From Carallia brachiata (lineage: Eukaryota; Streptophyta; Magnoliopsida; Malpighiales; Rhizophoraceae), in NCBI GenBank assembly GCA_021464245.1, contig JADCRB010000084.1:511615-575614 (forward strand): a stretch of DNA of 64,000 bases, read 5' to 3'. The notes under the pieces are model-generated. The model was not told the origin of the DNA. It made no database searches and worked only from the letters and a program-made list of their open reading frames with translations. Positions 13,752-64,000 of this stretch are shown here, piece after piece (positions within the stretch are counted from its first letter, which is position 1; every line of letters starts with the position of its first letter). A program made the translations under genes and the position numbers.

Positions 13752-13753
13752 TT

Positions 13754-14100
13754 TGTAAGTGTTTTAGAAGAGAAGAAGAATAGAAATACTGCAGAGAATG
13801 AAGAAGAACAGAAATACTGCAGAGAACTCACACATTTTATTGAACCAATAGCTCCTTTATAAAGGAACTTTACATAATCTCTAATTGAAACAAATTCAAA
13901 TTTCAAATGACATAAAATCAGGAGCCTGATCTTTAAAGATTAATCTTCCAGCTGCTCCTAGCTTGAACGAGTCAAGCATCTAAACAACTTATTCAAATTT
14001 GATTTTGTTAGCTAAATACTAATTGACTTCATCTAACTTAACAAACTGCTAAAACTTCTCTGCAATTTTTCACCAAATAAAAGTCTCAATTTCATCAACA
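13754..14100 (-). repeat. Copia 5' LTR
   Basis: This is the 347-bp partner of the LTR at 9269-9619. It begins TG and ends CA on +, and is adjacent to the primer-binding site. Confidence 0.92.
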
Positions 14101-30631: not shown

Positions 30632-33600
30632 TTAGTTGCAATTATTAGATTTGAGAAATGAATTTCTAATGCCAATCAACTTGTTGACAGCAACGCTCAT
30701 ATTCATCCGATTTCCGGGTGATCTTGCGGAACATGAGAGTCCAACATTCATCACTGATATCAGGCACTCCTCTATGCCACCTTTTGTATTGCTTTGATTG
30801 ACTGAAGAATCGATATATTTGATTATTGCTTTCTCTTCTATGCCATTTTCATTCATCTCAATGCCGTCTTCTTCATGAACATCAGGCATTGATGGGTCTA
30901 TTATATCCATGACATGTTCCGGCAAAGCCATTTCAACGAACTTGTGAATGCCTAGATCTTCTGTGAACATGTCATCTGTTGGTTTTTTTTCCTGTGAACA
31001 TCTCTAGCAATAGTATTACATAGCTGTAGACATCACCAGGTATGGAAACTTGGCCACCAATTCCATACTCTGCAGTAAGATCGCAGACCGCTGTTAGTAT
31101 AAGGTTTCATATATGCTTTGGATTTAGATGCTTAGATAAAACATAGCACTTCAGAATAGCACATATAATTTAGCAGGTATATTGAACGAAAAAGAGATCC
31201 TGAGTGAGCCATACCTGGAGGGATATAGCCAACAGAACTCTTCAAGCCAGCTGACATCTCTTGATTCTTCGTGGGGTTTGTTGTTGCTTCAAAGAGTAAC
31301 CTCGCCAGTCCAAAATCACCAACATGGGCTGTCATATTTTCATCGAGGAGTACATTGCTTGGTTTAGATCGCAATGAACAATTGGAGTTTCACAATGGTG
31401 GTGGAGATAATCCAATGCATAAGCAATGTCGATGGCGATATCCAATCTCTGGATAAGGTTCAAACTCTTAGCTCGGTACTGCTCATTAGCTTGTGGATGA
31501 AGCCGTTCTGATAGATTTCCTTTGGACATAAATTCGAAAACAAGGCATTTAAAGTCATTGCCTTGATGATCAATGGTTGAACAGACAGTGATGACCTTGA
31601 GGAGATTTCGATGTCGTATGCTTCTCAATGCTGTGCATTCAAAGCTCTTTGAAGCTCCATGCTGTTGAAGATTTAAGACCTTAATGGCAACAGTTCTTCC
31701 ATCACCAAAAAAAACTCGTTTGCACACAGAACCAAAACTGCCGGAACCGATCAAATTTTTGGTGGCAAAGCTATCAGTTGATCTCACAAGGTCTGTGTAA
31801 GACACATCTCCTTGCCATTCATCAGGTGGAGGTGTTGTGGTCATCCTCCTTAAGCTTCTCGCCAAACACAGTACTGGAACAGAACACGACAGAACTGTGA
31901 CCAAAACTGCACCAATTGTTGCCAGCATTTCTGCCTTGAAGGAAAGAGGTTTTGTTCTTCCTTTGCTGGAGCATAATTGTAGATGTAATTTCGGGATGCC
32001 ACCACAGACCTTATCACTTCCAACTATGGAAAATCCGCTTGCATTTGCAAATATGCCTTCTCTTGGCACTTCACCCTCAAAGTCGTTGTAGGACAGATTG
32101 AGATGTTTGAGGGATGATAACCCCCTCAGAAATTCAGGAATCTTCCCTGAGAAATTGTTGCGCGAAACATCTAGTTCTTCTATACCTCTTAAGGCTTTCA
32201 AAGATTCCGGAATTGTTCTTTCAATTTATTACCCTGCAAATTTAGTCTCTGTAAACTATTACAACTGCCAAGGGTGCTGAGAATTTCACCTGAAAAATTG
32301 TTGTCCCATAAGTCTAACTCCACGAGCTGCACCAGCTTGCCTACTTCTGATGGTAGAGGACCGGTCAACAAGTTACGAGACAAGACCAAAGAAACTGAGA
32401 GAGAGGAAAGGCCAATGACCTCCTTCGGTATGCTTCCATTAAGACGGTTGGTTGAAAGATTTAGATTTTGAAGACTTTTACAGTTTCCCAGACTCGGAGG
32501 TAATCTACCCTCAAGTTGGTTTTCCTCCATGAGCAGCCTAGTTAGTTTAGTCAAGTTACCCAGTGCAGATGGGATTAGTCCAGAGAATCTGCTACCATTC
32601 AAAGACATAACCCCCAATTTCTGCAGCTTCCCAATAACACTGGGAATGCTGCCGTTCAGTTGGTTGAATTCGAAACCCAAACGGGTCAAGTTAACCAGGT
32701 TCTCGATCCCAGGGGGAATGTTTCCATGAATCAAATTCTCCCCCAAGGACAATGTCTGTAGCTGGGTTGAAAGGTTACCAATAAAACTTGGTAGTTCTCC
32801 TCCAAACTGGTTGTGATAAAGACCCAACACCTCCAGAGCAGTGCAATTAGCCAAAGAACTAAAAATCCAAGTCTCCAATTTTTCCATCTCCCAGGTAGTT
32901 AGCATCAAAATTAAGTCTAACCAAACTTTGCAAGCTTCCTAGATTTGTCGGAACAGATCCAATAAGACCATTCTGAGCAAAATCAAGTACCATAAGTCCA
33001 GAAGCATTTGACAGTGACATTGGTATGTATCCTGTGAAATTGTTTACTCCACCGGCAAACACTTTGAGATTGGGAAGAGTCAGGCCAACATTAGTAGGTA
33101 GTTGGCCGTGGAGCTGGTTTTGAGCAACCGAGAAATAGTAAATGGAAGAAATGTTGTAGATTGAAGTGGGGATTGTACCAGATATATAATTGCCAAAAAT
33201 TTGAAAGAACTCCAAGTTGGATAACCTGCCAAGCTGACTGGGCATGCTTCCTTTGAAATTATTCAAGGCAAGCGAAAGTCCAACAAGTGAAGAAAAGTTT
33301 CCTATCCAAGAAGGGATGCTTCCTGTCAGGTTGTCACCACCAAGCTCCAGGACAACTAACTCTGTCTAAGAGCCAAGCTGGCGTGGAATTTCTCCGACAA
33401 AGTTGTTACCAGCAACAGCAAGTACTCTAAGATCAATGCAGTTTGTGAGATTTGTCCGAATCTTGCCAGAAAAGGAATTGGAGGTCAAGTTGACTTGCTG
33501 CAACCGCTGCAGGCGGCCAAGTTCTTCAGGAAGTTCCCCGTGAAAGCTGTTATTAGTTATTACGCAGATTGATTCCAGTCAGATACGTAAGGTTTCCCAT

Positions 33601-33909
33601 TGAAAGTGGTAAAGAGCCAGACAACCTTTGCGACTCAAGCATCAAAGTTACCACTCTGCCATTGTCTGGACTGCAGGAAACACCAGTCCAGTGGCAGAAA
33701 CTGACTGAATTGTTCCATGAACTCATGATTTGCAATGGATCTTCGGTTATAAGATTCTTCAAGTCTAGTAAGGCCATGTGGTCTGACTCGTTCGCGAAGT
33801 CAATTGCAGTTGCAAGTTCCGGGACATCAAAAGTGAAGGACAAAATGAGAATCCGGTGGAAAAGATTCGAGAAAATCCTTTTGGGATTTATGCAAGGATT
33901 CCTCATCAT
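30632..33909 (-). pseudogene. LRR receptor-like kinase, subfamily XII (EFR/At3g47570-like), multiply broken
   Basis: On minus the gene has a signal/N-cap region (DHMALLDLKNLI, FCHWTGVSCS). About 20 LRRs follow, with LxxLxLxxNxLxGxIP. A transmembrane segment lies at about 31870-31930, then a kinase domain with GSGSFGSVCK, VAIKVL and VHCDL. An intron lies at 31091-31214 and the last exon ends TAA at 30632-30634. HCD instead of HRD marks a non-RD kinase, typical of pattern-recognition immune receptors. Breaks: a 7-bp tandem insertion at about 33555, TAG at 33366-33368, and frameshifts near 32875, 32205, 31370 and in the A-run at about 30985. Some may be sequence errors, but the insertion and the nonsense codon look real. 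Confidence 0.88.
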
Positions 33910-34869
33910 CTCGTTGCAAATTGCGATTACATGAAGAAGTAGAAAGGTGGGAAGAAAATGCCAGTGATGAGTGTGGCTTTAAACATTCAACTGTCTCTGT
34001 ACATTTGCGTAGTTGAGAAAAGACTGTTTACGCGGCCGAGGCCCAGGGGCTTCAAAGTTTGTGCAAACCAGCAAGTTGTTTAGTTGGGTCCCAAATGAAC
34101 TTTCGCTCGTTGTGTGATCGTGGCATCTTTAATGGCATTAATGACTGATTGAAATTTGACCCCCTTAAAAACACTGATTTAAATATTTAAAAAGAATTAC
34201 ATAAATATATTTAATAAATAGTATATTAATATTTTTAATTTTTAATTTTTTACATCTGAATTTTAAATTTTTTTGACATTTTATTTAAATTTTAAATTTT
34301 TTAATTTTTTAACTAAATCAGTCCCTCTATTTATCAAAAGTGATCAATCTATTAAAAAATAATTTTAACTTTACAAAAAAAAATTATTTAAAAAAATTAA
34401 ATATATAAATTAAATATCTTTTCTATCAAAAAAATATGTATGTTATCTATTTAATTCGTATATTTATTGATTAAAAAAATATTTAATGCGCATATTTTAT
34501 TATAACAAAAATATTTAATTCATATATTTAATATTTTTTAAATAATTTTTATTAATTTAAACTCATTTATTAATTGATTGACCACTTTTTGTAATTTAAA
34601 GGACTGATATACTATGAAATCAAAAGATTTAGAATTCAAATGAAATATCAAAAAAATTTAAGATTCAAATGTAAAAAAATTTTAAAAGTTTAGAATTAAA
34701 AATATTAAAATCTTTTTAATAAATTATTTATGTACGTAATTAATTTAATAATATATAATAATTTATTTTTTAAAATTAATATATATTTTAAAATTTAATA
34801 GTTCAGATAATTATAAGTTAACTATATATTCACAACAGTGTATCAAAAAAAAATTGATTGGAGAAACAC
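33910..34869. other. AT-rich intergenic region upstream of the receptor kinase, no gene seen
   Basis: The first 250 bp could hold the receptor kinase promoter. From 34160 on, the sequence is almost pure A/T with TTTAAT/ATATTT words. Nothing codes. Confidence 0.5.
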
Positions 34870-42681: not shown

Positions 42682-43367
42682 TGTAAATAAATAAATAAAA
42701 AAAAATTAAAAAAATAATTAATGATTGGCAGCCGCCAACCTTGAAGTCAAGGTTGGCAGCTGCCAACCTTTAACTTTAATGCCACCAACTAATTGGTTGG
42801 TGGCAGGCATGGGGGAGGCCTATAAATTGGCCTTCCCCCAATTTGTAATTGGGCAGAGAAAAAAAAAGAAGAAAGCGCAGGAGAAAAAAAGCCAGCAGCG
42901 AAGCAAGCGTAAAAAAAAAAAAAAAGAAAGCAGGCGAAAAAAAAAAAAAAAAGAGAGAGATAGTAAAAAAAAAAATCAAAATCAAAATATTACAAATCCG
43001 GCTGGGATTAAGCCTCATACGGCCCTCAGCAAAATTCAGGCAGCTCATCCGAGAACAAGTCCCTTCGACCCTCGGTGAAATTAAGCCAGATCGGCTCAGA
43101 TCAAGTCTCTACAGTTCCTAAACGTAGTCAAAACATTCAAATCAGATACAGTTTCAGTCTATCCAGTTCAAGAAAAAGCGGTGGAAATTATTTCTGTCAA
43201 AGATCAAGCTCGTGCAGCCCTTGACGGAGTCAAAAAAGGAACACTAATCGGAGGATCTACGGAGATCGACTCCACGTAAATTTTCTTTTATTTTTACAAT
43301 TTTTATTTGCAATTTATTTTTGTATTTTCGAGTTTAATTGTTTTAGACTCGAAATTTACGCTTTACA
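42682..43367 (+). repeat. Gypsy LTR A (686 bp, 5' LTR of the first copy)
   Basis: It starts TGTAAATAAAT and ends GCTTTACA, followed by TTTGGCACACTCGGTGGGAC, the primer-binding region. It contains three inverted repeats, with TATAAAT at about 42821-42827 in the loop of the third. The left flank GATCC is not repeated at the right of LTR B. Confidence 0.9.
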
Positions 43368-46649: not shown

Positions 46650-48665
46650 GTGAAGTGAAGGAGGCTCCCCCGGAACTTGAAGATGGTGGCCAAGCAACTG
46701 TTGATGAACTCAAGGAGGTCAATCTTGGCTCTCCGGAAGATCCTCGACCTACATTTGTAAGTGCTTTACTTACTGCAGAAGAAGAGCAAGAATATGTTCA
46801 GGTATTAAGTCAATACAGGGACGTGTTCGCATGGAGTTACAAAGAAATGCCTGGACTTGACCCAAAAATTGCGGTGCATCGTCTAGCAGTAAAGAAGGGT
46901 GTCGTTCTGTCAAGCAGCCACAACGACGGTTCCGCCCGGAACTCATTCCACAAATCGAGGAGGAGGTGAACAAGCTGATCAATGCGGCTTCATCCGAGAG
47001 GTCACCTACCCAACGTGGATTGCCAACATTGTCCCGGTAAGAAAGAAGAATGGACAGTTGAGGGTATGTGTTGATTTTCGAGATCTTAACAAGGCCTGCC
47101 CGAAAGATGACTTTCCATTGCCCATAACGGAGATCACAGTCGATGCAACAACGGGTCACGAAGCATTGTCCTTCATGGATGGTTCTTCAGGCTATAACCA
47201 AATCAGAATGGCACCAGAAGACGAGGAGTTGACAGCATTCCGCACCCCAAAAGGTATATACTGCTACAAAGTTATGCCGTTTGGATTGAAAAATGCTGGC
47301 GCCACTTATCAACGTGCTATGCAAAAAATTTTTGATGACATGCTGCACAAGATTGTAGAATGTTATGTTGATGACTTAGTTGTAAAGACTAAGAAGCGCA
47401 AAGACCACCTCGAGGATCTCAAGACAGTGTTCGAAAGACTTCGGAGGCATCAGCTCAAAATGAACCCTCTCAAGTGCGCATTCGGTGTCACATCAGGAAA
47501 GTTTCTTGGGTTCGTGGTGCGCCATCGTGGAATCGAAGTTGATCAGTCAAAGGTTGAGGCAATTCAAAAGATGCCTGAACCTAAAAACCTGCACGAGCTG
47601 CGAAGTCTACAAGGAAAGCTGGCCTACATTCGCCGTTTCATCTCCAATTTAGCTGGGAGATGTCAACCTTTCCATCGGTTGATGAAGAAGGATGTCAACT
47701 TCGAGTGGGACGAAGCTTGCAGCAAAGCCTTTGAGAGCATAAAGAAGTACCTTTCCAATCCACCGGTCCTAGGTGCTCCAATTCAAGGAAAGTCGTTGAT
47801 TCTCTACATTGCAGCGCAGGAAAGATCTTTGGGAGCCTTGCTTGCACAGGAAAATGAGCAGGGAAAGGAAGTTGCCCTGTACTACTTGAGCAGAACACTA
47901 AACGGTCCGGAGCTGAGTTATTCGCCCATTGAAAAGACATGTCTAGCACTGTTCTTTGCCATTGACAAGCTGAGGCACTACATGCAAGCTCACACGGTAC
48001 GTCTCATTGCCAGAGCTGATCCTGTCAAATATATCTTATCTAGACCAATCTTGTCAGGACGACTTGCCAAGTGGGCAGTAATCCTACAAAGCTACGACAT
48101 TGTCTACGTGCCTCAAAAAGCAGTCAAAGGACAAGCTCTAGCAGACTTCCTTGCAGATCACCCTCCGTCAGATTGGGAGTTCACAGATGATCTTCCAGAT
48201 GAAGAGGTCTTTTACATTGAGACACTACCACCATGGACGATGTTCTTTGATGGTGCAGCAAGGCGTGATGGTGCTGGTGCCGGCATAGTGTTTGTCACTC
48301 CTCAACGACAAATACTACCATATGCTATCATTCTCGGTGAGTTATGTTCAAATAATGTTGCTGAATACCAGGCTTTGATCATTGGTCTTCAAATGGCTGT
48401 CGATATGAAGATTCCAACTATAGAAGTCCATGGAGATTCCCAGCTCGTCATCAACCAACTTACAGGATTGTATGACGTGAAGAAAGAGGACCTTGCGCCT
48501 TACCATCAACGTGCTCGACAGCTAATGGATGAATTTGAAAGCATCACCTTGGAGCATGTGCCTCGACGAAAAACACTCAGGCAGACGCGTTGGCTAACCT
48601 GGCCACTTCTCTTGCAAAGTCAGAAATCCAGGCTACAGTTGTTGCCGTATGCCAGAAATGGATAG
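46650..48665 (+). pseudogene. Gypsy RT, RNase H and archaeal-type RNase H, copy 1
   Basis: Two frames, broken at about 46905 by a missing base, cover the region. RT shows VCVDFRDLNKACPKD (about 47065), MPFGLKNAGATYQ (about 47274) and CYVDDLVVKTK (about 47361). The connection RNase H follows (about 47800-48140). A second RNase H of archaeal type has FFDGAARRDGAGAG (about 48243), NNVAEYQAL (about 48351) and GDSQLVINQL (about 48433). This double RNase H is diagnostic of Tat elements. The frame shifts again at about 48571. Confidence 0.9.
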
Positions 48666-48889: not shown

Positions 48890-49705
48890 AATGAAGAGGC
48901 AAAACAGGCTCTCACTGAAGCACATTCTGGTGTTTGTGGCGGACATCAATCGGGCTTAAGTTGCACTTCCAACTCAGAAGGATGGGATACTACTGGCCAA
49001 CCATGGTACGTGATTCAATTGAGTTTGCTAAAACCTGTCAAGCTTGTCAATTTCATGCGAATTACATACATCAACCACCGGAGCCACTGCATCCAACTGT
49101 CTCATCCTGGCCCTTTGAAGCTTGGGGTCTCGACTTAGTGGGGCCCTTGCCAAAGTCATCCCTGGGTCACCTGTACATCCTCGCAGCAACCGACTACTTC
49201 TCAAAATGGGCTGAAGCCATTCCACTTAGAGAGGTAAAGAAGGAGCATGTTGCCAATTTCATCCGGACTCAGCTGATCTATCGCTATGGAGTCCCTCGAT
49301 TCATCATCACTGATAATGGTAAGCAGTTCTACAACAGCTTAATCGACAAGCTCTGCGAGAAGTTCAAGTTCAAGCAGTACAAGTCATCCATGTACAATGC
49401 CCCAGCAAATGGCTTGGCCGAAGCATTCAACAAGACCTTATGCAACCTGTTGCGGAAGGTAGTCTCTAAATCCAAAAGAGATTGGCATGACAGAATTCCG
49501 GAGGCATTATGGGCGTATCGTACAACTTACCGGACTCCAACACAGGCGACGCCATACTCACTTGTCTACGGTGTCGAAGCAATACTGCCGTTGGAAACAC
49601 AGATTCCATCCTGCGCATGGCTGTTCTGGAAGGACTCACACAGGAGGAGAATGCTCGCCTACGTCTGGATGAGTTAGAAGCTCTCGATGAAAGGAGGCTC
49701 GAAGC
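48890..49705 (+). pseudogene. Gypsy integrase, copy 1, cut by N
   Basis: The zinc-binding part has CQACQ (about 49040). The catalytic core has LDLVGPLPKSS (about 49132), ITDNGKQF (about 49308) and the region NGLAEAFNKTL (about 49410), giving the D,D-35-E pattern. A one-base loss near 49610 breaks the frame, and the sequence stops at the N (49706) just after the core. Confidence 0.9.
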
Positions 49706-51519: not shown

Positions 51520-53394
51520 GTGAAGGAGGCTCCCCCGGAACTTGAAGACGGTGGCCAAGCAACTGTTGATGAACTCAAGGAGGTCAATCTTGGCTCTCCG
51601 GAAGATCCTCGACCTACATTTGTAAGTGCTTTACTTACTGCAGAAGAAGAGCAAGAATATGTTCAGGTATTAAGTCAATACAGGGACGTGTTCGCATGGA
51701 GTTACAAAGAAATGCCTGGACTTGACCCAAAAATTGCGGTGCATCGTCTAGCAGTAAAGAAGGGTGTCCGTTCTGTCAAGCAGCCACAACGACGGTTCCG
51801 CCCGGAACTCATTCCACAAATCGAGGAGGAGGTGAACAAGCTGATCAATGCCGGCTTCATCCGAGAGGTCACCTACCCAACGTGGATTGCCAACATTGTC
51901 CCGGTAAGAAAGAAGAATGGACAGTTGAGGGTATGTGTTGATTTTCGAGATCTTAACAAGGCCTGCCCGAAAGATGACTTTCCGTTGCCCATAACGGAGA
52001 TCACAGTCGATGCAACAACGGGTCACGAAGCATTGTCTTTCATGGATGGTTCTTCAGGCTATAACCAAATCAGAATGGCACCAGAAGACGAGGAGTTGAC
52101 AGCATTCCGCACCCCAAAAGGTATATACTGCTACAAAGTTATGCCGTTTGGATTAAAAATGCTGGCGCCACTTATCAACGTGCTATGCAAAAAATTTTTG
52201 ATGACATGCTGCACAAGATTGTAGAATGTTATGTTGATGACTTAGTTGTAAAGACTAAGAAGCGCAAAGACCACCTCGAGGATCTCAAGACAGTGTTCGA
52301 AAGACTTCGGAGGCATCAGCTCAAAATGAACCCTCTCAAGTGCGCATTCGGTGTCACATCAGGAAAGTTTCTTGGGTTCGTGGTGCGCCATCGTGGAATC
52401 GAAGTTGATCAGTCAAAGGTTGAGGCAATTCAAAAGATGCCTGAACCTAAAAACCTGCACGAGCTGCGAAGTCTACAAGGAAAGCTGGCTACATTCGCCG
52501 TTTCATCTCCAATTTAGCTGGGAGATGTCAACCTTTCCATCGGTTGATGAAGAAGGATGTCAACTTCGAGTGGGACGAAGCTTGCAGCAAAGCCTTTGAG
52601 AGCATAAAGAAGTACCTTTCCAATCCACCAGTCCTGGGAGCTCCAATTCAAGGAAAGTCGTTGATTCTCTACATTGCAGCGCAGGAAAGATCTTTGGGAG
52701 CCTTGCTTGCACAGGAAAACGAGCAGGGAAAGGAAGTTGCCCTGTATACTTGAGCAGAACACTAAACGGTCCGGAGCTGAGTTATTCGCCCATTGAAAAG
52801 ACATGTCTAGCACTGTTCTTTGCCATTGACAAGCTGAGGCACTACATGCAGGCTCACACGGTACGTCTCATTGCCAGAGCTGATCCTGTCAAATATATCT
52901 TATCTAGACCAATCTTGTCAGGACGACTTGCCAAGTGGGCAGTAATCCTACAAAGCTACGACATTGTCTACGTGCCTCAAAAAGCAGTCAAAGGACAAGC
53001 TCTAGCAGACTTCCTTGCAGATCACCCTATCCCATCCGATTGGGAGTTCACAGATGATCTTCCAGATGAAGAGGTCTTTTACATTGAGACACTGCCACCA
53101 TGGACGATGTTCTTTGATGGTGCAGCAAGGCGTGATGGTGCTGGTGCCGGTATAGTGTTTGTNGGAGATTCCCAGCTCGTCATCAACCAACTTACAGGAT
53201 TGTATGACGTGAAGAAAGAGGACCTTGCGCCTTACCATCAACGTGCTCGACAGCTAATGGATGAATTTGAAAGCATCACCTTGGAGCATGTGCCTCGACG
53301 AGAAAACACTCAGGCAGACGCGTTGGCTAACCTGGCCTTCTCTTGCAAAGTCAGAAATCCAGGCTACAGTTGTTGCTGTGTCAGAAATGGATAG
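51520..53394 (+). pseudogene. Gypsy RT and RNases H, copy 2, with N-marked deletion
   Basis: The frame 51520-52170 is intact across the site broken in copy 1 (about 51768). It then breaks at about 52155 (a G lost before AAAAA) and again at about 52492 and 52746. The N at 53163 replaces 136 bp of the archaeal-type RNase H (copy 1 positions 48296-48431). YVDD lies at about 52230. Confidence 0.9.
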
Positions 53395-53639
53395 TGCCAC
53401 AAAGGATGATGAAGAAACTACAGCAGCCAACGCTGTATCTGTACGTCTCGCGGAGGACGAGATTGGCGCCAACCAATCATTGACTACTACAGCACGGGAA
53501 GCTGCCCGAAGATCGTCGTCATAAGACAGAAATTCAACGACGAGCTCCCCGCTTCATATATCTCAAGGATGCTCTGTATCGAAGGTCTTTTGATGGAGTT
53601 CTACTTCGCTGCCTAGCCAATGAAGAGGCAAAACAGGCT

Positions 53640-54560
53640 CTCACTGAAGCACATTCTGGTGTTTGTGGCGGACATCAATCGGGCCTAAGTTGCACTTCCA
53701 ACTCAGAAGGATGGGATACTACTGGCCAACCATGGTACGTGATTCAATTGAGTTTGCTAAAACTGTCAAGCTTGTCAATTTCATGCGAATTACATACATC
53801 AACCACCGGAGCCACTGCATCCAACTGTCTCATCCTGGCCCTTTGAAGCTTGGGGTCTCGACTTAGTGGGGCCCTTGCCAAAGTCATCCCTGGGTCACCT
53901 GTACATCCTCGCAGCAACCGACTACTTCTCAAAATGGGCTGAAGCCATTCCACTTAGAGAGGTAAAGAAGGAGCATGTTGCCAATTTCATCCGGACTCAG
54001 CTGATCTATCGCTATGGAGTCCCTCGATTCATCATCACTGATAATGGTAAGCAGTTCTACAACAGCTTAATCGACAAGCTCTGCGAGAAGTTCAAGTTCA
54101 AGCAGTACAAGTCATCCATGTACAATGCCCCAGCAAATGGCTTGGCCGAAGCATTCAACAAGACCTTATGCAACCTGTTGCGGAAGGTAGTCTCTAAATC
54201 CAAAAGAGATTGGCATGACAGAATTCCGGAGGCATTATGGGCGTATCGTACAACTTACCGGACTCCAACACAGGCGACGCCATACTCACTTGTCTACGGT
54301 GTCGAAGCAATACTGCCGTTGGAAACACAGATTCCATCCCTGCGCATGGCTGTTCTGGAAGGACTCACACAGGAGGAGAATGCTCGCCTACGTCTGGATG
54401 AGTTAGAAGCTCTCGATGAAAGGAGGCTCGAAGCACAACAGCAACTTGAGTGCTACCAAGCCCGGCTCACCAACACGTTCAACCGCAGGGTCCGCCTCGA
54501 TCTTTTCAAGTTGGAGACCTTGTTCTTGCAGTGCGACGGCCCATCAACATGAAGCATCGG
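53640..54560 (+). pseudogene. Gypsy integrase, copy 2, near complete
   Basis: The frame 53866-54552 carries the full DDE core (LVGPLP, ITDNGKQF, NGLAEAFNK) and the following helix LDELEALDERRLEAQQQLE, then changes frame near 54500 into a GPYLVQEA-type C-terminal beta domain (about 54584). The zinc-binding half upstream is in another frame. Confidence 0.88.
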
Positions 54561-54759
54561 CCTGGTGACAAGCTTACTTCCAAATGGGACGGGCCATACT
54601 TAGTGCAGGAGGCCTACACTCACACACAACGCTTACATGCTGTCAGACCAAGAAGGCGTCCGAATCGGCCCAATCAATGGTAAATTTCTGAAACAGTATT
54701 ATGTGTAAATATGTTGAAAAAAAAAAAATTCAAAAAAAAAATCAAAAAAAAAAAAAAAA

Positions 54760-55035
54760 AAGAGTTCGGAAGTCCCGATCTGAAAGTCCAAGCGAAAACC
54801 CAAATCCAAAAGTCCGAGTTCAAAACCCAAACACTTGAGCCCAAACTCAAAACCCAACTCAAAAGCCTGAAAACCAAATCCAAAAGTCCAAGTCCAAAGC
54901 GCAAACACTCGACCCAAGTCCAAAAATCCAAGTCTAGAAGCCCAAACACTCGACCCAAATCCAATCCAAAGTCCAAAACCCAAAAATTCCAAGTCCCAAA
55001 CACAGTCCAGAACCCAAGTTCAAAATCCAATCCAA
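54760..55035 (+). repeat. Degenerate CCAAGTCCAAAA tandem tract after integrase
   Basis: Purine/cytosine-rich words CCAAGTCCAAAA, AAACCCAA and CACTCGACCCAA recur about 20 times in 280 bp. The matching lysine/serine-rich open frame is a by-product of composition. Tat elements are known to grow tandem repeats in this 3' untranslated zone. Confidence 0.8.
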
Positions 55036-55205
55036 CTCCTGAAAGTCAGCAACGGAGGGTTTGAGTCATGAAAATCCTTCATGAGTATAAACTGTGAACG
55101 GCCCAAAAATATAAAAGCAACGGAGGGTTTGAGTCTGAAAGTCAGCATCAGTCTCAACCGATCTTCACCACATACCAAGACCTTTGCTCCTCTGCCGCAA
55201 GAAAG

Positions 55206-55484
55206 ATGGAACCAGTTGCAGAACCTCAAGACAAGGGAGAAGAAAGGTCACCTCGCACAAGGTGGCAACCGACCATGGCACAACTGCAAATTTTGGAGAA
55301 AGTCTTCTACAACGATGGAGGTATTGTCCCTAACTCTACACAGATTCTCCAACTTGTCTCACGACTTCGCCCGCTAGGGGCAGTCGAAGGAAAAAATGTA
55401 TATTTTTGGTTCCAGAATCGGAGACATAGGGAAACAGTGGCGCTGAGAGATGGTATTTCCAAAGCACAGCCGTTGTTCCTATAG
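55206..55484 (+). CDS. WUSCHEL-clade WOX homeodomain carried inside a Gypsy element
   Basis: The ATG at 55206 opens a 92-residue frame. After a charged leader (MEPVAEPQDKGEE) comes a complete WOX-type homeodomain. Helix 1 has RTRWQPTMAQLQILE (about 55242), the loop has the WUS-type extra residues (YNDGG), helix 2 ends in SRLRPLG, then VEGKNVYFWFQNRRHRE (about 55386-55436) forms helix 3 with the invariant WFQNRR. The GKNV segment before WFQN is typical of the WUS/modern clade. In plants such proteins bind DNA and maintain stem cells. The frame ends at TAG 55482-55484. It lies between integrase and the 3' LTR, on the same strand. This is host-gene capture by inference. Confidence 0.88.
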   Translation: MEPVAEPQDKGEERSPRTRWQPTMAQLQILEKVFYNDGGIVPNSTQILQLVSRLRPLGAVEGKNVYFWFQNRRHRETVALRDGISKAQPLFL

Positions 55485-55816
55485 TAGATCTCACCAGTAC
55501 AGCTTCACCCTCACACATGAAGCCGCGCCAAGTTCTACCACTGCAATGGTCTCTCCACGGTACGTTCAATCAAAGCCGTAGCCTATGGGAGCATACATAC
55601 TGGTCCTGGTGGTTTCACGGAGTCAGCCAAGGGTTCATCCCTCCTAGATACTTAATCTAGGAGGAATTTTCTAGCACACAGAGTCATTCCGGCGAAATTT
55701 TGCCTCTCTTTCCAGAATATTCCGGCAGCATCAACCAGCCGGAAAGCAACATCAACATCATCGGCCCACCAGACGAGATCGAGCTTGACTTGGAGCTGCG
55801 CCTCGGGCCCCGCTAG
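55472..55816 (+). pseudogene. C-terminal half of the captured WUS-like gene: WUS-box and EAR motif
   Basis: The frame that overlaps the homeodomain end (offset by two) runs 55472-55816, with one TAG at 55658-55660. Downstream of that stop it encodes GEILPLFPEYSG (about 55697), matching the LPLFP core of the WUS-box, then IELDLELRLGPR just before TAG 55814-55816, an LxLxL/EAR-type repression motif. In WUS proteins these two motifs follow the homeodomain in the same order, near the C-terminus. The frame change and the internal TAG break the gene in this copy. Each could be decay or the one-base errors seen elsewhere here. Confidence 0.75.
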
Positions 55817-55836
55817 GACGGCCGACAAGATAAGGT

Positions 55837-55924
55837 GCAACGACTTCTGCAGCACGCGGCAATGACTTCCGCAGCACACGGCAACGACTTCTGCCACACA
55901 CGGTAACGACTTTCGTGACACGCG
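55837..55924 (+). repeat. Four tandem 22-bp units just after the WUS-like stop
   Basis: Units at 55837, 55859, 55881 and 55903 each read G(C/T)AA(C/T)GACTT...CAC(G/A)CG and are exactly 22 bp long with a few substitutions. Confidence 0.92.
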
Positions 55925-56750
55925 TCAGCCGCTGCCTCTTTTGTCTCTTATGCAGGAAAGGGACGTGGATGGCCCTACCCGATTCTGCATACCTTTTTTG
56001 ACTTTTCAAAAAAAAAAAAAAAAAAAAAAACTCTTTATTATTTGTATATATATCCTGCATGCCCGAGTTGTAATATTCACCCCTCAGCTCTTCTTTCTCA
56101 AAAGAAAATGGCTAGTCTCTGCACTTGTCTCAGGAAGTTCTTCGATCAAAAAGTTGGAGGCGCACGAGCTAAGAAAAGAAGGAGTAGTCTTCTCGAGAGG
56201 ATCCCTAAAAGCCCTCGAAACTCAGTCTCAACGCCATCGGTGTCATGGAGTTCCAACTACCTCCTTAGTTCACATCTACCACAGAGGGATGAGAAGCTGC
56301 AATTATCCTAATCTTTCTTTGGATGCAGCGACGTACAGGGAAGTTCCAACTACTCTCCTTACGTCGAAGCAGACTTGAAATCATCACTACACAGTCTCTC
56401 TGTGAGCCGGTCTTGAAGTTCCAAGGTCCGAGCCTTTCCTTGGGGAGGTTGAAGTTCTTTGCCTACCGGTCATCCTCACCAGAGCTCTGGAACTTAAGAG
56501 ATATAAAAAATCCTTTGCGGGCTATGGAAGCTCGAACGCACCTGGAGCCAAGACTTTAATTTCTATATTGGCTGGGCTGCTAACTTCTTCAAGATCATAT
56601 CGGTTTCCTATTGCGATCCAACAACAGCGGAGATGGTCAAAGATAGAAGACTCCAAGATTCAATGTTCATCAGGACTTTCCAAATTTCAAACTGGACTTC
56701 AAGACTCGGTTCGAATTATCTCTGTAAAAATCTTTCTTCTTGCCGACCCT
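55925..56750 (+). other. Gypsy 3' region between the WUS-like gene and the polypurine tract
   Basis: A small frame from ATG 56108 (MASLCTCLRKFF) and others can be read, but none resembles a known protein. GTTCCAACTACT recurs at about 56252 and 56343. A long A-run lies at 56010-56030. Confidence 0.5.
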
Positions 56751-56765
56751 TGAAGTGGGGGCATT
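56750..56765 (+). other. Gypsy polypurine tract
   Basis: GAAGTGGGGGCATT lies directly before the TG of LTR B, in the usual position and strand for plus-strand priming. Confidence 0.85.
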
Positions 56766-57450
56766 TGTAAACAAATAACTTTTTTTAAAAAAATAAATAA
56801 ATAAATAAATAAATAAAAAAAAAAAGTGGTTGGCCGCCAACCTTGAAGTCAAGGTTGGCAGCCAACCTTTAAAAGCCACCAACCAATTGGTTGGGGCAGG
56901 CAGGTTGGGGGAGGCCTATAAATGGCCTCCCCCCAAATCAATTGAAGCAGAGAAAAGAAAGAAGAAAAAAGAAAGAAGGCAGCCAGCAGGCGGAAAAAAA
57001 AAAAAAAAGAAGAAGAGAAAAGAAAAAAAAAAAAAAGAAGAGAGATAGTAAAAAAAAAAAAATCGAAATATTACAATCCGGCTGGGATTAAGCCTCTCTA
57101 CGGCCCTCAGCAAAATCCAGGCAACTCATCCGAGAACAGTCTATTCGACCCCGGTGAAATTAAGTCAGATCAGCTCAGATCGAGTCTCTACGTCTCTACG
57201 GTTCCTAAACGTAGTCAAAACATCCAAATCAGCACAGTTTCAGTCTATCCAGTTCAAGAAAAAGCGGTGGAAATTATTTCTGTCCAGATCAAGCTCGTGC
57301 AGCCCTTGACGGAGTCAAAAAAAAGGAACACTAATCGGAGGATCTACGGAGATCGACCCACGTAAATTTCTTTTCTTTTATAATTTTTATTTGTAATTTA
57401 TTTTTGTATTTTCGAGTTTAATTATTTTAGACTCGAAATTTCGCTTTACA
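56766..57450 (+). repeat. Gypsy LTR B (685 bp, 3' LTR)
   Basis: It starts TGTAAACAAATAAC and ends TTTCGCTTTACA. The inverted-repeat cluster (about 56829-56935) with TATAAAT in the last loop is present, with small losses in the first and second palindromes. Confidence 0.92.
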
Positions 57451-58184
57451 TTACGTTGAATAATTGATTTTTTTTTAAAAGAAGAAAGATTAGTTTGTTA
57501 GATATCTTTAGATAAATTGTATGACTATTTTGTTACTATTTAAATTTAAGTTATAAGTATGTAATAAAATTCTTAAACAAATATCGCCCCAGGGCCGTGA
57601 CATCACGTTTCTTGGGGGGTTTTTCTTCTTTGTGTGCATGCCCTAAGAGCTCTAGATCATCCGATCTCGGATAAGGAACGTTTTTTTTGCACGAAATTTC
57701 CACGCTATAAGATCATATAATTTTAACCTTATTTTTTAGGCCAAACTACCTTGAAATCAAAAATAACATATTTATAAAAATCATATTCAAAAATTATGTA
57801 TATCTTATTTGAATTACATATATATGACAACGTAAAAAGAGATATGTATAAAATATACAGTTTATTCAATATTATTTATTAATTTTATTTTTTTTCTAAT
57901 TCAAAATATTTTCATGGTTCAATACTGATATAATATCACTGTATTCATCACTGCATGTTCTTTCTTGTAATTGTTATGAAGCTTTACTCATCTCATTTTT
58001 ATTCAAATCTTATAATACAGAAGTCTTGTTTATTGGGAACGTCTTTTCGTTTTTTGATACCTATCCGATGGATTCACGACTTTTTAGGTTATGTGAACGA
58101 ACAAGAAAGAAGAAAACGAGACGTCACGTTTATGAGCGTCTTTTTTTTTTTTTTAACCCTCTTTTTGCTGTTGTTTGTTACAAA
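57451..58184. other. AT-rich spacer between Gypsy blocks, no gene seen
   Basis: Mostly A/T-rich unique sequence with a GC-richer patch at 57585-57690. No protein or RNA gene was recognised. Confidence 0.45.
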
Positions 58185-58185
58185 N

Positions 58186-58855
58186 AAAAAAAAAAAAAAA
58201 AAAAAATGGTTGGCAGCCGCCAACCTTGAAGGTTGGCAGCTGCCAACCTAATTAATGCCACCAACCAATTGGTTGGTGGCAGGCAGGTGGGGAGGCCTAT
58301 AAATGGCCTCCCCCAATTGAAAAAAAAAGAGCAGAGCGAGAGAAGAAAAAAAGAAAAAAAAAAAAAAAAAGGAAAGAGCAGCGCAGCGCAGGAAAAAAAA
58401 AAAAAAAGAAAAAGAAAAAAAAAAAGAAAAAAAAAAAAAAAGAAGAAAGAAAAAAAAAAAAAAAAAAAAAAAAATCGAAATATTACAAATCCGGCTGGAT
58501 TAAGCCTCATACGGCCCTCAGCAAAATCAGGCAACTCATCCGAGAACAAGTCCATTCGACCCTCGGTGAAATTAAGTCAGATCAGCTCAGATCGAGTCTC
58601 TACGGTTCCTAAACGTAGTCAAAACATCCAAATCAGACACAGTTTCAGTCTATCCAGTTCAAGAAAAAGCGGTGGAAATTATTTCTGTCCAGATCAAGCT
58701 CGTGCAGCCCTTGACGGAGTCAAAAAAGGAACACTAATCGGAGGATCTACGGAGATCGACCCCACGTAAATTTTCTTTTACTTTACAATTTTTATTTGTA
58801 ATTTATTTTTGTATTTTCGAGTTTAATTGTTTTAGCTCGAAATTTACGCTTTACA
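58186..58855 (+). repeat. Gypsy LTR C (5' LTR of the third copy, 5' end lost at an N)
   Basis: It resumes after the N at 58185 within the A-rich LTR start and ends TTTACGCTTTACA, followed by the primer-binding region TTTGGCACGCTCGGTGGGAC. It holds the clearest inverted repeats: a perfect 24-bp palindrome at 58257-58280, and arms GGGGAGGCC/GGCCTCCCC around TATAAAT (58289-58313). Confidence 0.9.
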
Positions 58856-59058
58856 AATTTTTGGCACGCTCGGTGGGACAACTTCACCTCCCATCTCTTG
58901 TTCCTAAAAAAAAAAAAGAGGTAAAAGGGGAGCCGAGAGAAAAAAAAAAGTAAAAAAAAAAGTAAAAAGTAAAAAAAAAAGTAAAAAAAAAGTAAAAAAA
59001 AAAGTAAAAAAGTAAAAAGTAAAAGTAAAAAAAAGTAAAAAGTAAAAAGTAAAAAAAA

Positions 59059-59095
<37 letters not shown>

Positions 59096-59113
59096 AGGTG
59101 TTCAGCACATCAA

Positions 59114-60600
59114 ATGGCACCGAAAAGGAGTACAACTGCTGCCACAAAAAAGAAGGCAACGGCTCCATTGCCTGCATCAACTACCCTACCTGGGTACGCA
59201 GGTCCAGAAACCCGGGGACGGACACAATTTCTTGCCGTCCAAACCCGACAAAAGTCGAAATGGAGAGTCCACAGCTGCACAACAGGATCTCTCCCCTGAC
59301 TCTCTTGCCGCATGGAGGAGTCGATCACCCACCCCGATCGAATCGGGGGCAACACGACGAAGCCTGCTCAACAAAATCCGACTCACACAGAAGAATCAGA
59401 AGAGTTTTCTCCCCCAGTCTTTCCCGGAGCCTCATCTGTTGCCGTCATGATGACCAACACAACCAGCACAGAGGAAAGATTTCAGAATTGGAGAACAAAA
59501 TTTTGCAGCTGATCAGAGTCGTGGAGGAAAAAGATCAACAGATCGCAGCTCTCAAAGGAAAAGCCCCGATCCAAGTTGATCCCGAAATCCGCGAGAGAGC
59601 AACCATATCCACCCGGTTTCACTCCAGAAGCCACACCAGCCGACGTCTTCCCTGCAGAAAAGCGACCAGGTAGTTCTACACAGCTGCCACCCTCAAATTC
59701 TGTAGCTTCGCTATCTGTTCAACAATTGCAGGAAATGATAGCCAATACGATCCGACTGCAACAAGCTACATCCTTCCAAGGATCACAGATGTACGTCAAA
59801 CCGTACACCAGACGGATCGAAAGTCTCAACATGCCCTTGGGCTACCAGCCGCCCAAATTTCAACAATTCGACGGACGAGGCGATCCCAAACAGCACATCG
59901 CCCACTTCGTTGAAACCTGCAACAACGCAGGGACTTACGGAGATCTCTTGGTGAAGCAGTTTGTTCGTTCACTCAGGGAGACCGCTTTCACCTGGTTCAT
60001 AAATCTTGAACCAGAATCGATCGACAGTTGGGAACAGCTACAACGAGAGTTCCTCAACAGATTTTTCAGCACTCGAAGGACGGTAAGTATGATGGAGCTT
60101 ACCAGCACCAAACAAAGAAAGGAGAGCCCGTTGTCGAATACATCAACAGATGGCGTGCCCTCAGCTTGGACTGCAAAGATCGCCTGACGGAGACTTCTGC
60201 CGTAGAGATGTGCATCCAGGGAATGCATTGGGAGCTGTTATACATCCTGCAGGGTGTCAAACCCCGAACTTTCGAAGAACTGGCGACCCGCGCACATGAT
60301 ATGGAGATAAGCATCCAGACTTCCGGAGGCACGGTTCCCATCCAGTTGGACCAGCAAGGGGGCAGAAGGGAGATTAAGAAACCCAACAGCTCCGGAAAAG
60401 GAAAGGAAGTGATGACTGTTGAAGCCGCACCAGTAAAAGTGGGCGCCAAAGCTAAGGTAAATCCTCCGACCCAAATAACTCAGCCAAAACAACAGGAAAG
60501 GCGGAAGGTGACATTGCGAGAGTTGGAGCAGAAGCAGTATCCATTCCCCGACTCAGACGTCCCGACATTCTTGAACAACTCTTGGAGGCGAAGCTGATCG
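59114..60600 (+). pseudogene. Gypsy gag, copy 3 (frameshifted)
   Basis: The ATG at 59114 begins MAPKRSTTAATKKKATAPLP, probably the true gag start of the family. The frame is lost near 59255. The gag core (GYQPPKFQQFDGRGDPKQH at about 59841, WFINLEPESIDSWEQLQREFLNRFF at about 59994) follows in the 59576-60187 frame and then 60028-60597. It includes a segment (60049-60110) absent from copy 1. Confidence 0.87.
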
Positions 60601-62258
60601 AACTCCCAGAGTGCAAGCGGCCGAATGAAAAGGATCGAGTCAGCGATCCGAGATTCTGCAAATATCACCGGATAGTAAGTCATCCAACCGAGAAGTGTTT
60701 CGTCCTGAAGGAGCTAATCATGAAGCTCAAAAGCCAGAATAAAATCATTCTGGACCAGGAAGGCATAACCTCGGCAAACCAGACCACCATCACTTCAAAA
60801 CCATCAGAAGAGTGACACACCGTAAGGAGGAGCCGCTCGACAACAAAAAGTCGACAACGGAGAAGGTATATGAAGCTCTCCAAACCCTTCTCGCTAACCC
60901 TCAGCTGTTTATAGCTTTGCAACAACAGAAGTGTGGCAAAATCAAGTCAGCAATACTCTCCAGACCTCAGCTGAATCACAGCCATCAAATGAGTCTAACT
61001 CGAGCAGCAACAGGCGGACCAAAATCACGTCGGATGTTACTCTGCTATCTCATTTTCAGATGAGGATCTCCTGCTGGGGTCCAAACCCCACAATCGGCCG
61101 CTGTATGTATCAGGCTATGTGAAAGACAGAAGGTCCGACGTATTCTGATCGACGATGGCTCAGCAGTCAATATTATCCCAAAATCCACCATAAAGGAGCT
61201 CGGCATCGGTTGATGAATTATCAGACAGCCGCTTGATGATTCATGGCTTTAATCAAGGAGGACAGAAAGCAATTGGGATGATTCGCTTGGAGCTAACTAT
61301 CGGTAATCTCACTTCTAGCACTCTATTTCACGTGATTGATGCACGTACCACATATAAGATGTTGCTAGGACGACCGTGGATTCATGGAAATGGAGTTGTG
61401 CTCTCAAGCCTGCATCAGTGCTTCAAGTACTACAATGGTGGCGTTCAAAAGGTCAATGCTGACTTAAAGCCGTTCGATGATGCTGAATCACATTTGGCGG
61501 ATGCAGTCTTCTACACTGACACAGACAATCCGGAGATCATTCCGTCAAAAGCTACTTGGACTGGGGGCATCCACAAAAAGGGAAAAGCTGTCGAAGAACC
61601 TGCCAATGCCCAACCCCAGGCTCCAACAAATGAAAAGCTGCCACAGCCTGCTGAACTTCGTCCGAAGGATGTTGCATCTTCAAGCTCCACTCCAGTCCTA
61701 CGCTATGTGCCGAAGTCACGACGCTCAGAAGGTCAACCCCCTTTCTCTTATTGTATTGATTCTAAACAGGAGCAAGGACATAGCCAACCCAAAACAAAGG
61801 AGCTGCACAACCTGAAGGAGACTTACACTCTGCCGATACCAAAGATTGAGCCGGTTTTGTCTTCAAAACCATTAAAAGGCTTCGTCAAACCACACACGGG
61901 GGCAGTCGAAGGCGGCTCACTTCCAGAAAGAAGAACACATGAAGGATTTGATCCTAATGCATACAAGCTTTTGGCAAAGGCGGGCTATGACTTCTCAAAC
62001 CCGAGCACAATGGGTACGCTGCCGTCCACACATGGCGCCGCTTCTCAAACATCACAGTCCCGACCTGGCTTAGGCTATCAGGAGAAGTCACCTGTGCGGA
62101 TCACGCTAAAGAGCCGAAGCCGAGCAGCTGATGCACGTGCCATCACCACCACCACCAAACAGACAGGCTTATCCAGTCAAACAAAGAAGGTGAAGTCAGA
62201 GGTTCTGCATTTCATGTCACAATTAGCGAGGAGGCTGATTCGACTCATCAGATGGTGA
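60600..62258 (+). pseudogene. Gypsy gag end, protease and linker, copy 3
   Basis: It shows CKYHRIVSHPTEKC at about 60656, then protease IDDGSAVNIIP at about 61150. Losses of single bases near 60813, 60922, 61120 and 61210 shift the frame. The clean frame 61233-62258 carries LLGRPWIHG and the linker. Confidence 0.85.
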
Positions 62259-62259
62259 A

Positions 62260-64000
62260 GTGAAGGAGGCTCCCCCGGAACTTGAAGATGGTGGCCAAGC
62301 AACTGTTGATGAACTCAAGGAGGTCAATCTTGGCTCTCCGGAAGATCCTCGACCTACATTTGTAAGTGCTTTACTTACTGCAGAAGAAGAGCAAGAATAT
62401 GTTCAGGTATTAAGTCAATACAGGGACGTGTTCGCATGGAGTTACAAAGAAATGCCTGGACTTGACCCAAAAATGCGGTGCATCGTCTAGCAGTAAAGAA
62501 GGGTGTCCGTTCTGTCAAGCAGCCACAACGACGGTTCCGCCCGGAACTCATTCCACAAATCGAGGAGGAGGTGAACAAGCTGATCAATGCCGGCTTCATC
62601 CGAGAGGTCACCTACCCAACGTGGATTGCCAACATTGTCCCGTAAGAAAGAAGAATGGACAGTTGAGGGTATGTGTTGATTTTCGAGATCTTAACAAGGC
62701 CTGCCCGAAAGATGACTTTCCGTTGCCCATAACGGAGATCACAGTCGATGCAACAACGGGTCACGAAGCATTGTCTTTCATGGATGGTTCTTCAGGCTAT
62801 AACCAAATCAGAATGGCACCAGAAGACGAGGAGTTGACAGCATTCCGCACCCCAAAAGGTATATACTGCTACAAAGTTATGCCGTTTGGATTGAAAAATG
62901 CTGGCGCCACTTATCAACGTGCTATGCAAAAAATTTTTGATGACATGCTGCACAAGATTGTAGAATGTTATGTTGATGACTTAGTTGTAAAGACTAAGAA
63001 GCGCAAAGACCACCTCGAGGATCTCAAGACAGTGTTCGAAAGACTTCGGAGGCATCAGCTCAAAATGAACCCTCTCAAGTGCGCATTCGGTGTCACATCA
63101 GGAAAGTTTCTTGGGTTCGTGGTGCGCCATCGTGGAATCGAAGTTGATCAGTCAAAGGTTGAGGCAATTCAAAAGATGCCTGAACCTAAAAACCTGCACG
63201 AGCTGCGAAGTCTACAAGGAAAGCTGGCCTACATTCGCCGTTTCATCTCCAATTTAGCTGGGAGATGTCAACCTTTCCATCGGTTGATGAAGAAGGATGT
63301 CAACTTCGAGTGGGACGAAGCTTGCAGCAAAGCCTTTGAGAGCATAAAGAAGTACTTTCCAATCCACCGTCCTAGGTGCTCCAATTCAAGGAAAGTCGTT
63401 GATTCTCTACATTGCAGCACAGGAAAGATCTTTGGGAGCCTTGCTTGCACAGGAAAATGAGCAGGGAAAGGAAGTTGCCTGTACTACTTGAGCAGAACAC
63501 TAAACGGTCCGGAGCTGAGTTATTCGCCCATTGAAAAGACATGTCTAGCACTGTTCTTTGCCATTGACAAGCTGAGGCACTACATGCAAGCTCACACGGT
63601 ACGTCTCATTGCCAGAGCTGATCCTGTCAAATATATCTTATCCAGACCAATCTTGTCAGGACGACTTGCCAAGTGGGCAGTAATCCTACAAAGCTACGAC
63701 ATTGTCTACGTGCCTCAAAAAGCAGTCAAAGGACAAGCTCTAGCAGACTTCCTTGCAGATCACCCTGTTCCGTCAGATTGGGAGTTCACAGATGATCTTC
63801 CAGATGAAGAGGTCTTTTACATTGAGACACTACCACCATGGACGATGTTCTTTGATGGTGCAGCAAGGCGTGATGGTGCTGGTGCCGGCATAGTGTTTGT
63901 CACTCCTCAACGACAAATACTACCATATGCTATCATTCTCGGTGAGTTATGTTCAAATAATGTTGCTGAATACCAGGCTTTGATCATTGGTCTTCAAATG
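62260..64000 (+). pseudogene. Gypsy RT and RNases H, copy 3 (cut by window end)
   Basis: RT motifs lie at about 62675 (VCVDFRDLNKACPKD) and 62967 (YVDD), followed by RNase H and the start of the archaeal-type RNase H (FFDGAARRDGAGAG at about 63850, NNVAEYQAL at the end). Frameshifts are at about 62474, 62641, 63354 and 63478, each a single missing base against copy 1. Confidence 0.9.

Follow-up and report, generated by a model that had tools for sequence, protein, structure and literature searches.

Can a plant retrotransposon carry a WUSCHEL-like homeobox gene as a gene of its own, and what would it gain from doing so? This question is raised by a stretch of 64,000 nucleotides from Carallia brachiata (assembly GCA_021464245.1, contig JADCRB010000084.1, positions 511,615 to 575,614 of the forward strand), hereafter called the window. 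On its + strand, a gene resembling those of the WUSCHEL-related homeobox (WOX) family occupies positions 55206..55816, between the integrase and the 3' long terminal repeat (LTR) of a Gypsy-type element. The window copy, with its ATG at 55206, is broken, and other copies in the genome have uninterrupted open reading frames (ORFs) of 203-207 codons. The WOX-like gene is a standing accessory gene of this retrotransposon family, carried by the majority of copies and not confined to one subfamily; of this statement and the identity of the gene, taken together, we are close to certain.

A WUSCHEL-type gene in the window

The locus reads MEPVAEPQDKGEERSPRTRW...EGKNVYFWFQNRRHRET..., followed in another frame by GEILPLFPEY and by ELDLELRLGPR and a stop. 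By phmmer and alignment, the homeodomain (55254..55439, + strand) is of the WUSCHEL (WUS) type, with a one-residue insertion that is confined to WUS among the aligned WOX proteins. GEILPLFPEY (55691..55720, + strand) resembles the WUS-box, its counterpart in the host WUS being ETLPLFPIH, and the C-terminal EAR-type motif ELDLELRLG, followed by PR and the stop (55781..55816, + strand), was recognised by eye and had no database hit. An initial annotation, made from the letters of the window, had described a WOX homeodomain, a WUS-box core and an EAR motif in this place, and the coordinates were confirmed. It had also described this copy as degraded, which is the case: the homeodomain frame runs into two adjacent TAG codons (55482-55487), and the C-terminal motifs are encoded in a different frame that is interrupted by a TAG at about 55658-55660.

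Searched against proteins of solved structure with phmmer, a 92-aa piece from the window matched WUSCHEL (2.7e-16) and STENOFOLIA (5.4e-14), all remaining hits being at 0.18 or above. The same piece matched the Pfam Homeodomain at 2.6e-10, and full-length element ORFs did so at 2.6e-9 and 1.2e-12. A chance homeodomain, which the initial annotation had also thought improbable, is ruled out by the WUSCHEL and Pfam matches of the piece and by the 651 genomic signature places, against 0 in the control, described below. AlphaFold, run on the 92-aa piece without an alignment, gave a poor model (mean predicted local distance difference test score 52.4).

Occurrence of the gene across the family

We searched the assembly to which the window belongs (337.5 Mb, 164 contigs). 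With the homeodomain as query, tblastn returned 1,739 candidates; the best 150 were scored and all 150 were matches. The exact codon pattern EGKNV[FY][FY]WFQN occurred at 651 places, few of which could be explained by the nine WUS-clade loci of the host, and the reversed control gave 0. The recognition-helix sequence of subfamily 1 was found at 218 places with up to two mismatches, and the junction of the polypurine tract (PPT) and the LTR at 809 places with up to one mismatch, each with 0 in its control. In contigs C1-C25, an exact junction lay 0.8-1.4 kb downstream on the same strand at 55 of the 88 signature places, and none of the 88 had one on the opposite strand within 2 kb; read from the other side, the signature was upstream of 55 of the 77 exact junctions.

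A sample that was independent of the gene was formed by taking every fifth of 100 listed exact junctions (contigs C1-C43), that is, 20 3' ends. WOX homology was present in 19 of them, uninterrupted in five and broken in 14, and the single 3' end without it has an N in the stretch. A further 51 loci (L001-L030 and L040-L060) were chosen by homeodomain similarity and are a biased set. Among these, the ORF was uninterrupted to the EAR motif in 19/30 and 4/21, respectively, two of the four being without an in-frame N-terminal ATG. With the frames read separately, the WUS-box-like motif was found at 46 and the EAR motif at 45 of the 51 loci, and both, in any frame, at 42. The junction (up to three errors) followed the homeodomain by 1.1-1.6 kb in 30/30 and 18/21 of these loci, and was downstream of none of the nine host WOX loci (0/9). 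The copies fall into two or more subfamilies, whose full proteins are about 80% alike. A single odd copy is thus ruled out, given 150 matches among 150 scored, 651 signature places and 19 of 20 sampled 3' ends. Two more decayed or divergent WOX homologues (L073 and L083, about 50% identity, frames broken) perhaps represent an older third subfamily.

The carrier element

The lineage of the carrier can be read from element copy 1 (46893..48662, + strand), which has Pfam RVT_1, RT_RNaseH and RVT_3 in that order, i.e., reverse transcriptase (RT), RNase H and a second RNase H-like domain, with the integrase after them (rve in 48919-49674). In Ogre and Retand, the position described for the second RNase H (aRH) is likewise after RNase H and before the integrase (PMC6317226). 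A Tat-type Gypsy carrier is supported by this order, the second RNase H having been assigned through Pfam RVT_3 rather than an aRH-specific model. The integrase of copy 1 runs to about 49674, and a probable join at the N at 49706 removes anything downstream.

Upstream of the WOX-like gene, on the same strand and in the same N-free stretch, is an open piece of integrase (53761..54549, + strand; Pfam rve 5.2e-11). Between them lies an A-rich spacer (54681..55205, + strand) with a 41-bp tandem repeat at 54798-54984. Downstream, the region from the gene to the PPT (55817..56749, + strand) has its longest sense frame at 55866-56375, in which no Pfam domain was found, and is followed by the PPT, TTGAAGTGGGGGCAT (56750..56764, + strand), and by the 685-bp 3' LTR (TG...CA; 56766..57450, + strand), of which there are LTR copies at 42685-43367 (86.3%) and 58182-58855 (86.0%). 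Element copy 3 (58186..64000, + strand) comprises an LTR, gag (PF03732) and sequence that matches copies 1 and 2 in their protease and RT, and extends beyond the window. The initial annotation had forecast the gene in this copy, some 2.1 kb outside the window; an uninterrupted 203-codon WOX ORF does start at C149:577588, 1,974 bases beyond the last base of the window. The LTRs of copy 3 are 92.1% identical.

Recent insertions and stripped forms

Two insertions are bounded by target site duplications (TSDs). The copy on contig C70 has CTTAC on both sides and LTRs that are 98.6% identical over 651 sites, and locus L061 has TTAAG and LTRs 98.1% identical over 967 sites. Substitution rates of 1.3e-8 and 7e-9 per site per year date both to roughly 0.5-1.4 million years ago. 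The earlier claim that a Tat-type Gypsy family carries a WUS-type gene is thus supported by the sampled 3' ends, the TSD-bounded insertions, the second RNase H-like domain and the lack of the junction at host loci.

In L061, WOX (a 203-codon ORF) is the only one of the pieces tried that matches the 3.1 kb between the LTRs. L062 resembles it, and neither of these LTR-WOX-LTR forms, both of which were found via WOX, matched the gag, protease, RT and integrase pieces that were tried. An LTR start typical of stripped forms was found at 82 places, and four of these (L094-L097) were chosen without regard to WOX. In all four, the end of gag was matched (two match more of gag) and WOX was present, uninterrupted in two, and no RT or integrase match was found within 3.37 kb. 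The gene therefore persists in stripped forms after the loss of pol, and also after the loss of both gag and pol. Outliving pol is to be expected if the gene helps the element in cis, and equally if the region holds RNA signals that are needed in cis. In C108:37301-51803 of the same genome, five 3' LTRs with the start seen in stripped forms stand on one strand at spacings of 3.2-4.7 kb, perhaps as a tandem array of LTR-internal units, and a similar array may be begun in L062.

Selection and mosaic history

We estimated the ratio of nonsynonymous to synonymous divergence (dN/dS) from PPT-anchored uninterrupted ORFs, comparing two copies of one subfamily with three of the other (6 pairs). This set replaced earlier ones ranked by homeodomain similarity, which were biased. 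Between subfamilies, dN/dS was 0.50 for the whole ORF (Fisher p 0.0004-0.038) and 0.31 for codons 1-81 (p 0.0006-0.011). A codon-model grid on the biased set, with kappa at 2, was best at about 0.55 overall (log-likelihood -1815.5, vs -1822.3 at 1) and at about 0.3 for codons 1-81. The homeodomain part is under purifying selection between the subfamilies, and the C-terminal part shows no such signal.

The two subfamilies have diverged unevenly over the length of the element. In four pairs of subfamily 1 against subfamily 2, profiled in 100-base bins, the integrase bins mostly differed by 0-5%. Within the ORF, the difference was 2-5% in the first 100 bases, 11-27% from +100 to +400 (for example, L013 vs L056) and 2-9% from +400 to +800. 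Variation in all or most of these pairs was also seen in the upstream spacer and in the few hundred bases just ahead of the LTR. By contrast, members of subfamily 1 compared with each other (two pairs) differed by 0-1% at +100 to +400. Synonymous divergence (dS) was likewise 0.34 in codons 34-133 vs 0.05 in codons 134 to the end. The simplest reading is that a block comprising homeodomain helices 2-3 and the linker was exchanged with a lineage in which constraint had acted for a long time, presumably through template switching.

Origin of the gene

The host genome has nine WUS-clade homeodomain loci (L031-L039), which from their sequence features we take to be two WUS, two WOX1, one WOX2, one WOX3, two WOX5 and one WOX4; genes of the WOX11, WOX9 and WOX13 types are also present. 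A WUS parent rests on two characters. In the alignment, every WUS row and every element row has the one-residue homeodomain insertion, which the rows of WOX1-5, 9, 11 and 13 lack. The exact ETLPLFP is found in both host WUS genes, in 13 of the 21 loci L040-L060 (subfamily 2) and in one of the 30 loci L001-L030, and the looser E.L.LFPEY occurs in some frame in 16/21 and 30/30, respectively. The WUS-box has been defined as T-L-X-L-F-P (PMC5578171), and the host WOX1, 3, 4 and 5 have TLQLFP or TLELFP.

A profile of five intact ORFs matched 648 proteins, and among the 120 matches listed, many of the best were WUSCHEL (the first at 1.6e-16) and some were WOX3. None of these 120 exceeded 53% identity, and none was an annotated element ORF from elsewhere or a protein named from Vigna. 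No relatives were found in IMG/VR via the homeodomain, the integrase or the full-length profile. The host WUS itself was closest to an Erythroxylum WUS, well ahead of legumes, among the 120 matches listed, which points to a host in the Malpighiales. In the host WUS, the homeodomain and the WUS-box are 1.2-1.3 kb apart in separate open frames. Because the element has both in a single frame, the gene likely derives from a host WUSCHEL transcript that had been spliced, a parentage that is not proven.

Proposed function

How might such a gene serve the element? The presumably captured WUS-like gene would make a small nuclear DNA-binding repressor acting on host stem-cell genes. Made in the cells that transcribe the element, this protein would bind and repress WUS-like targets, mimicking or competing with the host WUS, and a larger number of cells would remain within the stem-cell lineage from which the germ line arises, or would pass through it. 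The target range could shift as homeodomain blocks are exchanged between element lineages.

Several features of the protein fit such a role. It keeps the base-reading residues Q89, N90 and R94 of WUS (residue numbers follow our own mapping, which is consistent with PMC7203112) and has an Arg at the position of S36. In WUS, the change S36R is described as raising TAAT affinity six-fold with TGAA binding kept (PMC7203112), and the element protein would be expected to behave in the same way. According to work on Arabidopsis WUS, the acidic domain activates, the WUS-box and EAR motif repress, and the WUS-box is required for all biological functions; a 'MiniMe' version, in which homeodomain, WUS-box and EAR are combined, shows high mobility (PMC7214502). 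The element protein is without the acidic stretch that precedes the WUS-box in the host WUS. Since this stretch is gone and the WUS-box core and EAR-type motif are kept, the best-supported guess is a short repressor that would act as a mimic or a competitor of WUS. That the family carries a captured WUS-like accessory gene encoding a predicted nuclear repressor of the host stem-cell programme, a claim that blends identity and presence with mechanism, we hold to be slightly better than an even bet. The small-repressor mechanism in combination with a WUS parent is more tentative and falls somewhat short of even. Unlikely, though of the greatest consequence, is the widest version: that the element carries its own stem-cell master regulator, which would enlarge or redirect the germ-founding stem-cell pool and raise the inheritance of the element, with homeodomain blocks being swapped, stripped elements transmitting the gene and, Vigna included, a kind that recurs or has spread horizontally across distant plant orders. 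If true, it would be the plant counterpart of a retroviral oncogene.

A number of results weigh against the proposed repressor or its WUS parentage. The dimer contact F101 of WUS is not conserved. Among the four LTRs tested, there was no significant excess of the known WUS sites TAAT, TGAA and G-box, the lowest P being 0.07 (TAAT in the 5' LTR of copy 1), and no TGAATGAA site; the LTR as a WUS target was dropped for want of enrichment. For the C-terminal remainder, between-subfamily dN/dS was 0.78 and not significant (p 0.12-0.47; 6 pairs), and the codon-model grid gave about 0.8, compatible with 1, and 0.905 at free kappa. For codons 134 to the end the ratio was 1.5, from just 2.2 synonymous differences. 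The selection check proposed in the initial annotation found constraint in codons 1-81 and no significant sign of it in the rest. Part of the selection signal stems from the mosaic history, because it lies within the block where dS is so much higher. In the gene-independent sample, 14 of 20 copies were broken and one was without the gene, and all counts come from a single genome. As for the parent, the homeodomain tree places the elements in one clade (99/95) on a long stem, and the best tree puts this clade toward the WOX9/11/13 side with weak support (72/80). The approximately unbiased (AU) test rejected no placement (p 0.134 with WUS, 0.327 with WOX3, 0.080 with WOX9/11 and 0.086 with WOX13), so that the tree is too weak as proof of a WUS parent. 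Loci L001-L030 (subfamily 1) mostly have EILPLFP, one residue from ETLPLFP, and the LPLFP core was dropped as a mark of WUS alone on finding EALPLFP in the host WOX2. The WUS-clade identity claimed from the order and set of motifs thus stands as far as the motifs go, and the tree does not single out WUS.

Alternative explanations

One alternative is a host WOX locus misjoined between Gypsy pieces. Single Ns do occur in the window, at 49706, 53163 and 58185 (also 34875), the first three being where element pieces meet or break and likely marking assembly joins. Copies 1 and 2 are probably pieces put side by side at such joins, because the 5-mers flanking the outer LTRs do not match as a TSD pair (GATCC vs TTACG). 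However, the integrase, WOX-like gene, PPT and 3' LTR all lie inside the N-free stretch 53164-58184 with no join crossed, the same order recurs at many places, and two insertions are TSD-bounded. Such an artefact, for which we see virtually no chance, is refuted by the genome-wide copies, and neither outcome that the initial annotation named as fatal, an insert unique to this copy or a misjoined host locus, was found. A parent of the WOX3, WOX2 or WOX9/11/13 type, with the WUS-like insertion and ETLPLFP arising by convergence, is a more serious matter, to which we give a sizeable minority chance. The AU results and the best tree leave room for it, copy L053 (subfamily 2) is slightly nearer to the host WOX3 (52.3%) than to the host WUS L031 (50.0%), and the LPLFP core is shared by the host WOX2. 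The insertion is nevertheless confined to WUS and element rows, the exact ETLPLFP is found only in WUS among the host genes whose box was seen, and WUSCHEL is prominent among the best-scoring named proteins in the matches listed; because the element stem is long, the tree is also liable to long-branch pull.

With a WUS-like gene granted, its role may be other than the repression of host stem-cell genes. It might be a passenger, picked up a single time from the host and multiplied along with a successful element to which it is useless, the intact frames merely reflecting young copies. Subfamily 1 fits this, since its ORFs are near-identical (mean dS 0.016, 19 full ORFs) and intactness there is uninformative, as do the near-neutral C-terminal part and the 15 of 20 sampled copies that are broken or lack the gene. 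Yet, in ORFs sampled without regard to the gene, codons 1-81 show a dN/dS of 0.31 between subfamilies, the WUS-box-like and EAR motifs are kept at most of the 51 loci, and pol-less forms retain the gene, which leaves a passenger rather improbable. The nearest alternative, and the main functional rival, is that the gene serves the transcription of the element itself. The protein would bind its own LTR or internal region and tune transcription to stem cells without acting on host genes, as a retroviral transactivator does. The retained DNA-contact residues and the retention in forms without pol agree with this, regulatory roles have been proposed for accessory proteins of other plant Gypsy elements (PMC11963269), and TGAA occurs 13 times in the spacer upstream of the gene where 7.4 would be expected (P 0.01 before correction, in one of 42 comparisons). 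Against it stand the four LTRs, without significant site excess or a TGAATGAA site, and the EAR motif and WUS-box, which suggest repression, so that the element itself would be silenced. We consider self-regulation no likelier than a passenger, and a repressor of host stem-cell genes remains our preferred proposal.

Other features of the window

Four further features lie elsewhere in the window, all on the - strand. A Copia element at 9287-14100, with its pol frame at 9731-12775, has LTR stretches of 209 bp that are 100% identical, indicating a very recent insertion. At 27329-27862, three 177-bp tandem repeats, 94-96% alike, lie in a 361-codon frame (27039-28121) with no Pfam domain; since 177 bp is 59 codons, a protein repeat is possible. 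An open frame at 3556-5352 encodes a DUF659 (hAT-type transposase-like) protein, and several frames at 31335-33978 correspond to an LRR receptor-like kinase, possibly a pseudogene or an intron-split gene.

Significance and comparison with known systems

The accessory ORFs of plant LTR retrotransposons are mostly without a recognisable origin or function, and here the origin is legible and points to the meristem. The meristem is the plant tissue that gives rise to the germ line. With this family it becomes possible to test directly whether influence on host stem-cell identity benefits a retroelement, and its copies are a source of natural short WUS variants in which DNA-contact residues are altered. 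In addition, WOX gene counts in such genomes may include element copies.

The nearest known case is found in legumes. A 2023 meeting report (Naito) describes many WOX copies in Vigna marina and V. riukiuensis, the latter having over 1000; most of the copies are flanked by identical LTRs with TSDs (PMC10714607). The statement in the initial annotation that no family of this kind had been described is thereby overturned. The Vigna account is brief and, as it stands, names neither the lineage of the element nor the WOX subgroup and says nothing of gag-pol content, motifs or selection (PMC10714607), and the passage on the expanded WOX family of V. reflexo-pilosa does not mention LTRs (PMC10357499). 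Elsewhere, the string 'homeo' is absent from the main texts of PMC11963269, PMC7264820, PMC9289625, PMC6317226 and PMC13317346, the last being a 2026 review of plant gene capture, and PMC6482515, which counts transposons near Brassica WOX genes, deals with a different matter. WOX genes in LTR elements are thus a known but barely described kind, of which the present family is a separate case in a second plant group; for this family, gag-pol-bearing and stripped forms, intact ORFs, selection and a mosaic homeodomain are shown. Their occurrence in a second distant group after Vigna suggests recurrent capture or spread, beyond accident.

LONELY GUY acts in the cytokinin pathway, and the LONELY-GUY-type domain of Citrus elements may be a suggestive parallel to the element-borne WOX gene. 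This domain was reported in a screen of 121 angiosperm genomes, which lists 15 extra Gypsy domains, including AlkB and, in one species, B3 (PMC9289625). The orchid Gypsy elements with an AlkB-type N6-methyladenosine demethylase likewise have a host-type gene fixed in a Tat-related family with several subfamilies, but that gene is an RNA demethylase and the present one a developmental regulator (PMC9289625). The B3 case, Gypsy consensuses of Aegilops tauschii, also brings the DNA-binding domain of a plant transcription factor into Gypsy; there it is a domain hit only, whereas the present family has a homeodomain, WUS-box, EAR motif and intact ORFs (PMC9289625).

In position, the gene resembles the many-copy accessory ORFs between pol and the 3' LTR of Tat/OTA Gypsy elements (Retand TRP28, the Ogre plant mobile domain and the Grande gene), which share the dual RNase H; as reported, most such ORFs have no recognised domains (PMC6317226, PMC11963269, PMC7264820). 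The Retand ORFs described there are mostly antisense, and the sense ORFs have no known domain, in contrast to the present sense ORF with its recognisable host transcription factor. Bs1 and Rider show that LTR retrotransposons capture host sequence (PMC7264820, PMC13317346), but in one or few copies (PMC7264820), whereas the present family has hundreds, in several structural forms. With WUSCHEL and MiniMe WUS, finally, the element protein shares a homeodomain with Q89, N90 and R94, the WUS-box core, an EAR-type motif and a short linker; it differs in being element-borne and intronless, in having no acidic stretch before the WUS-box, and in its Arg at S36 and the loss of F101 (PMC7214502, PMC7203112).

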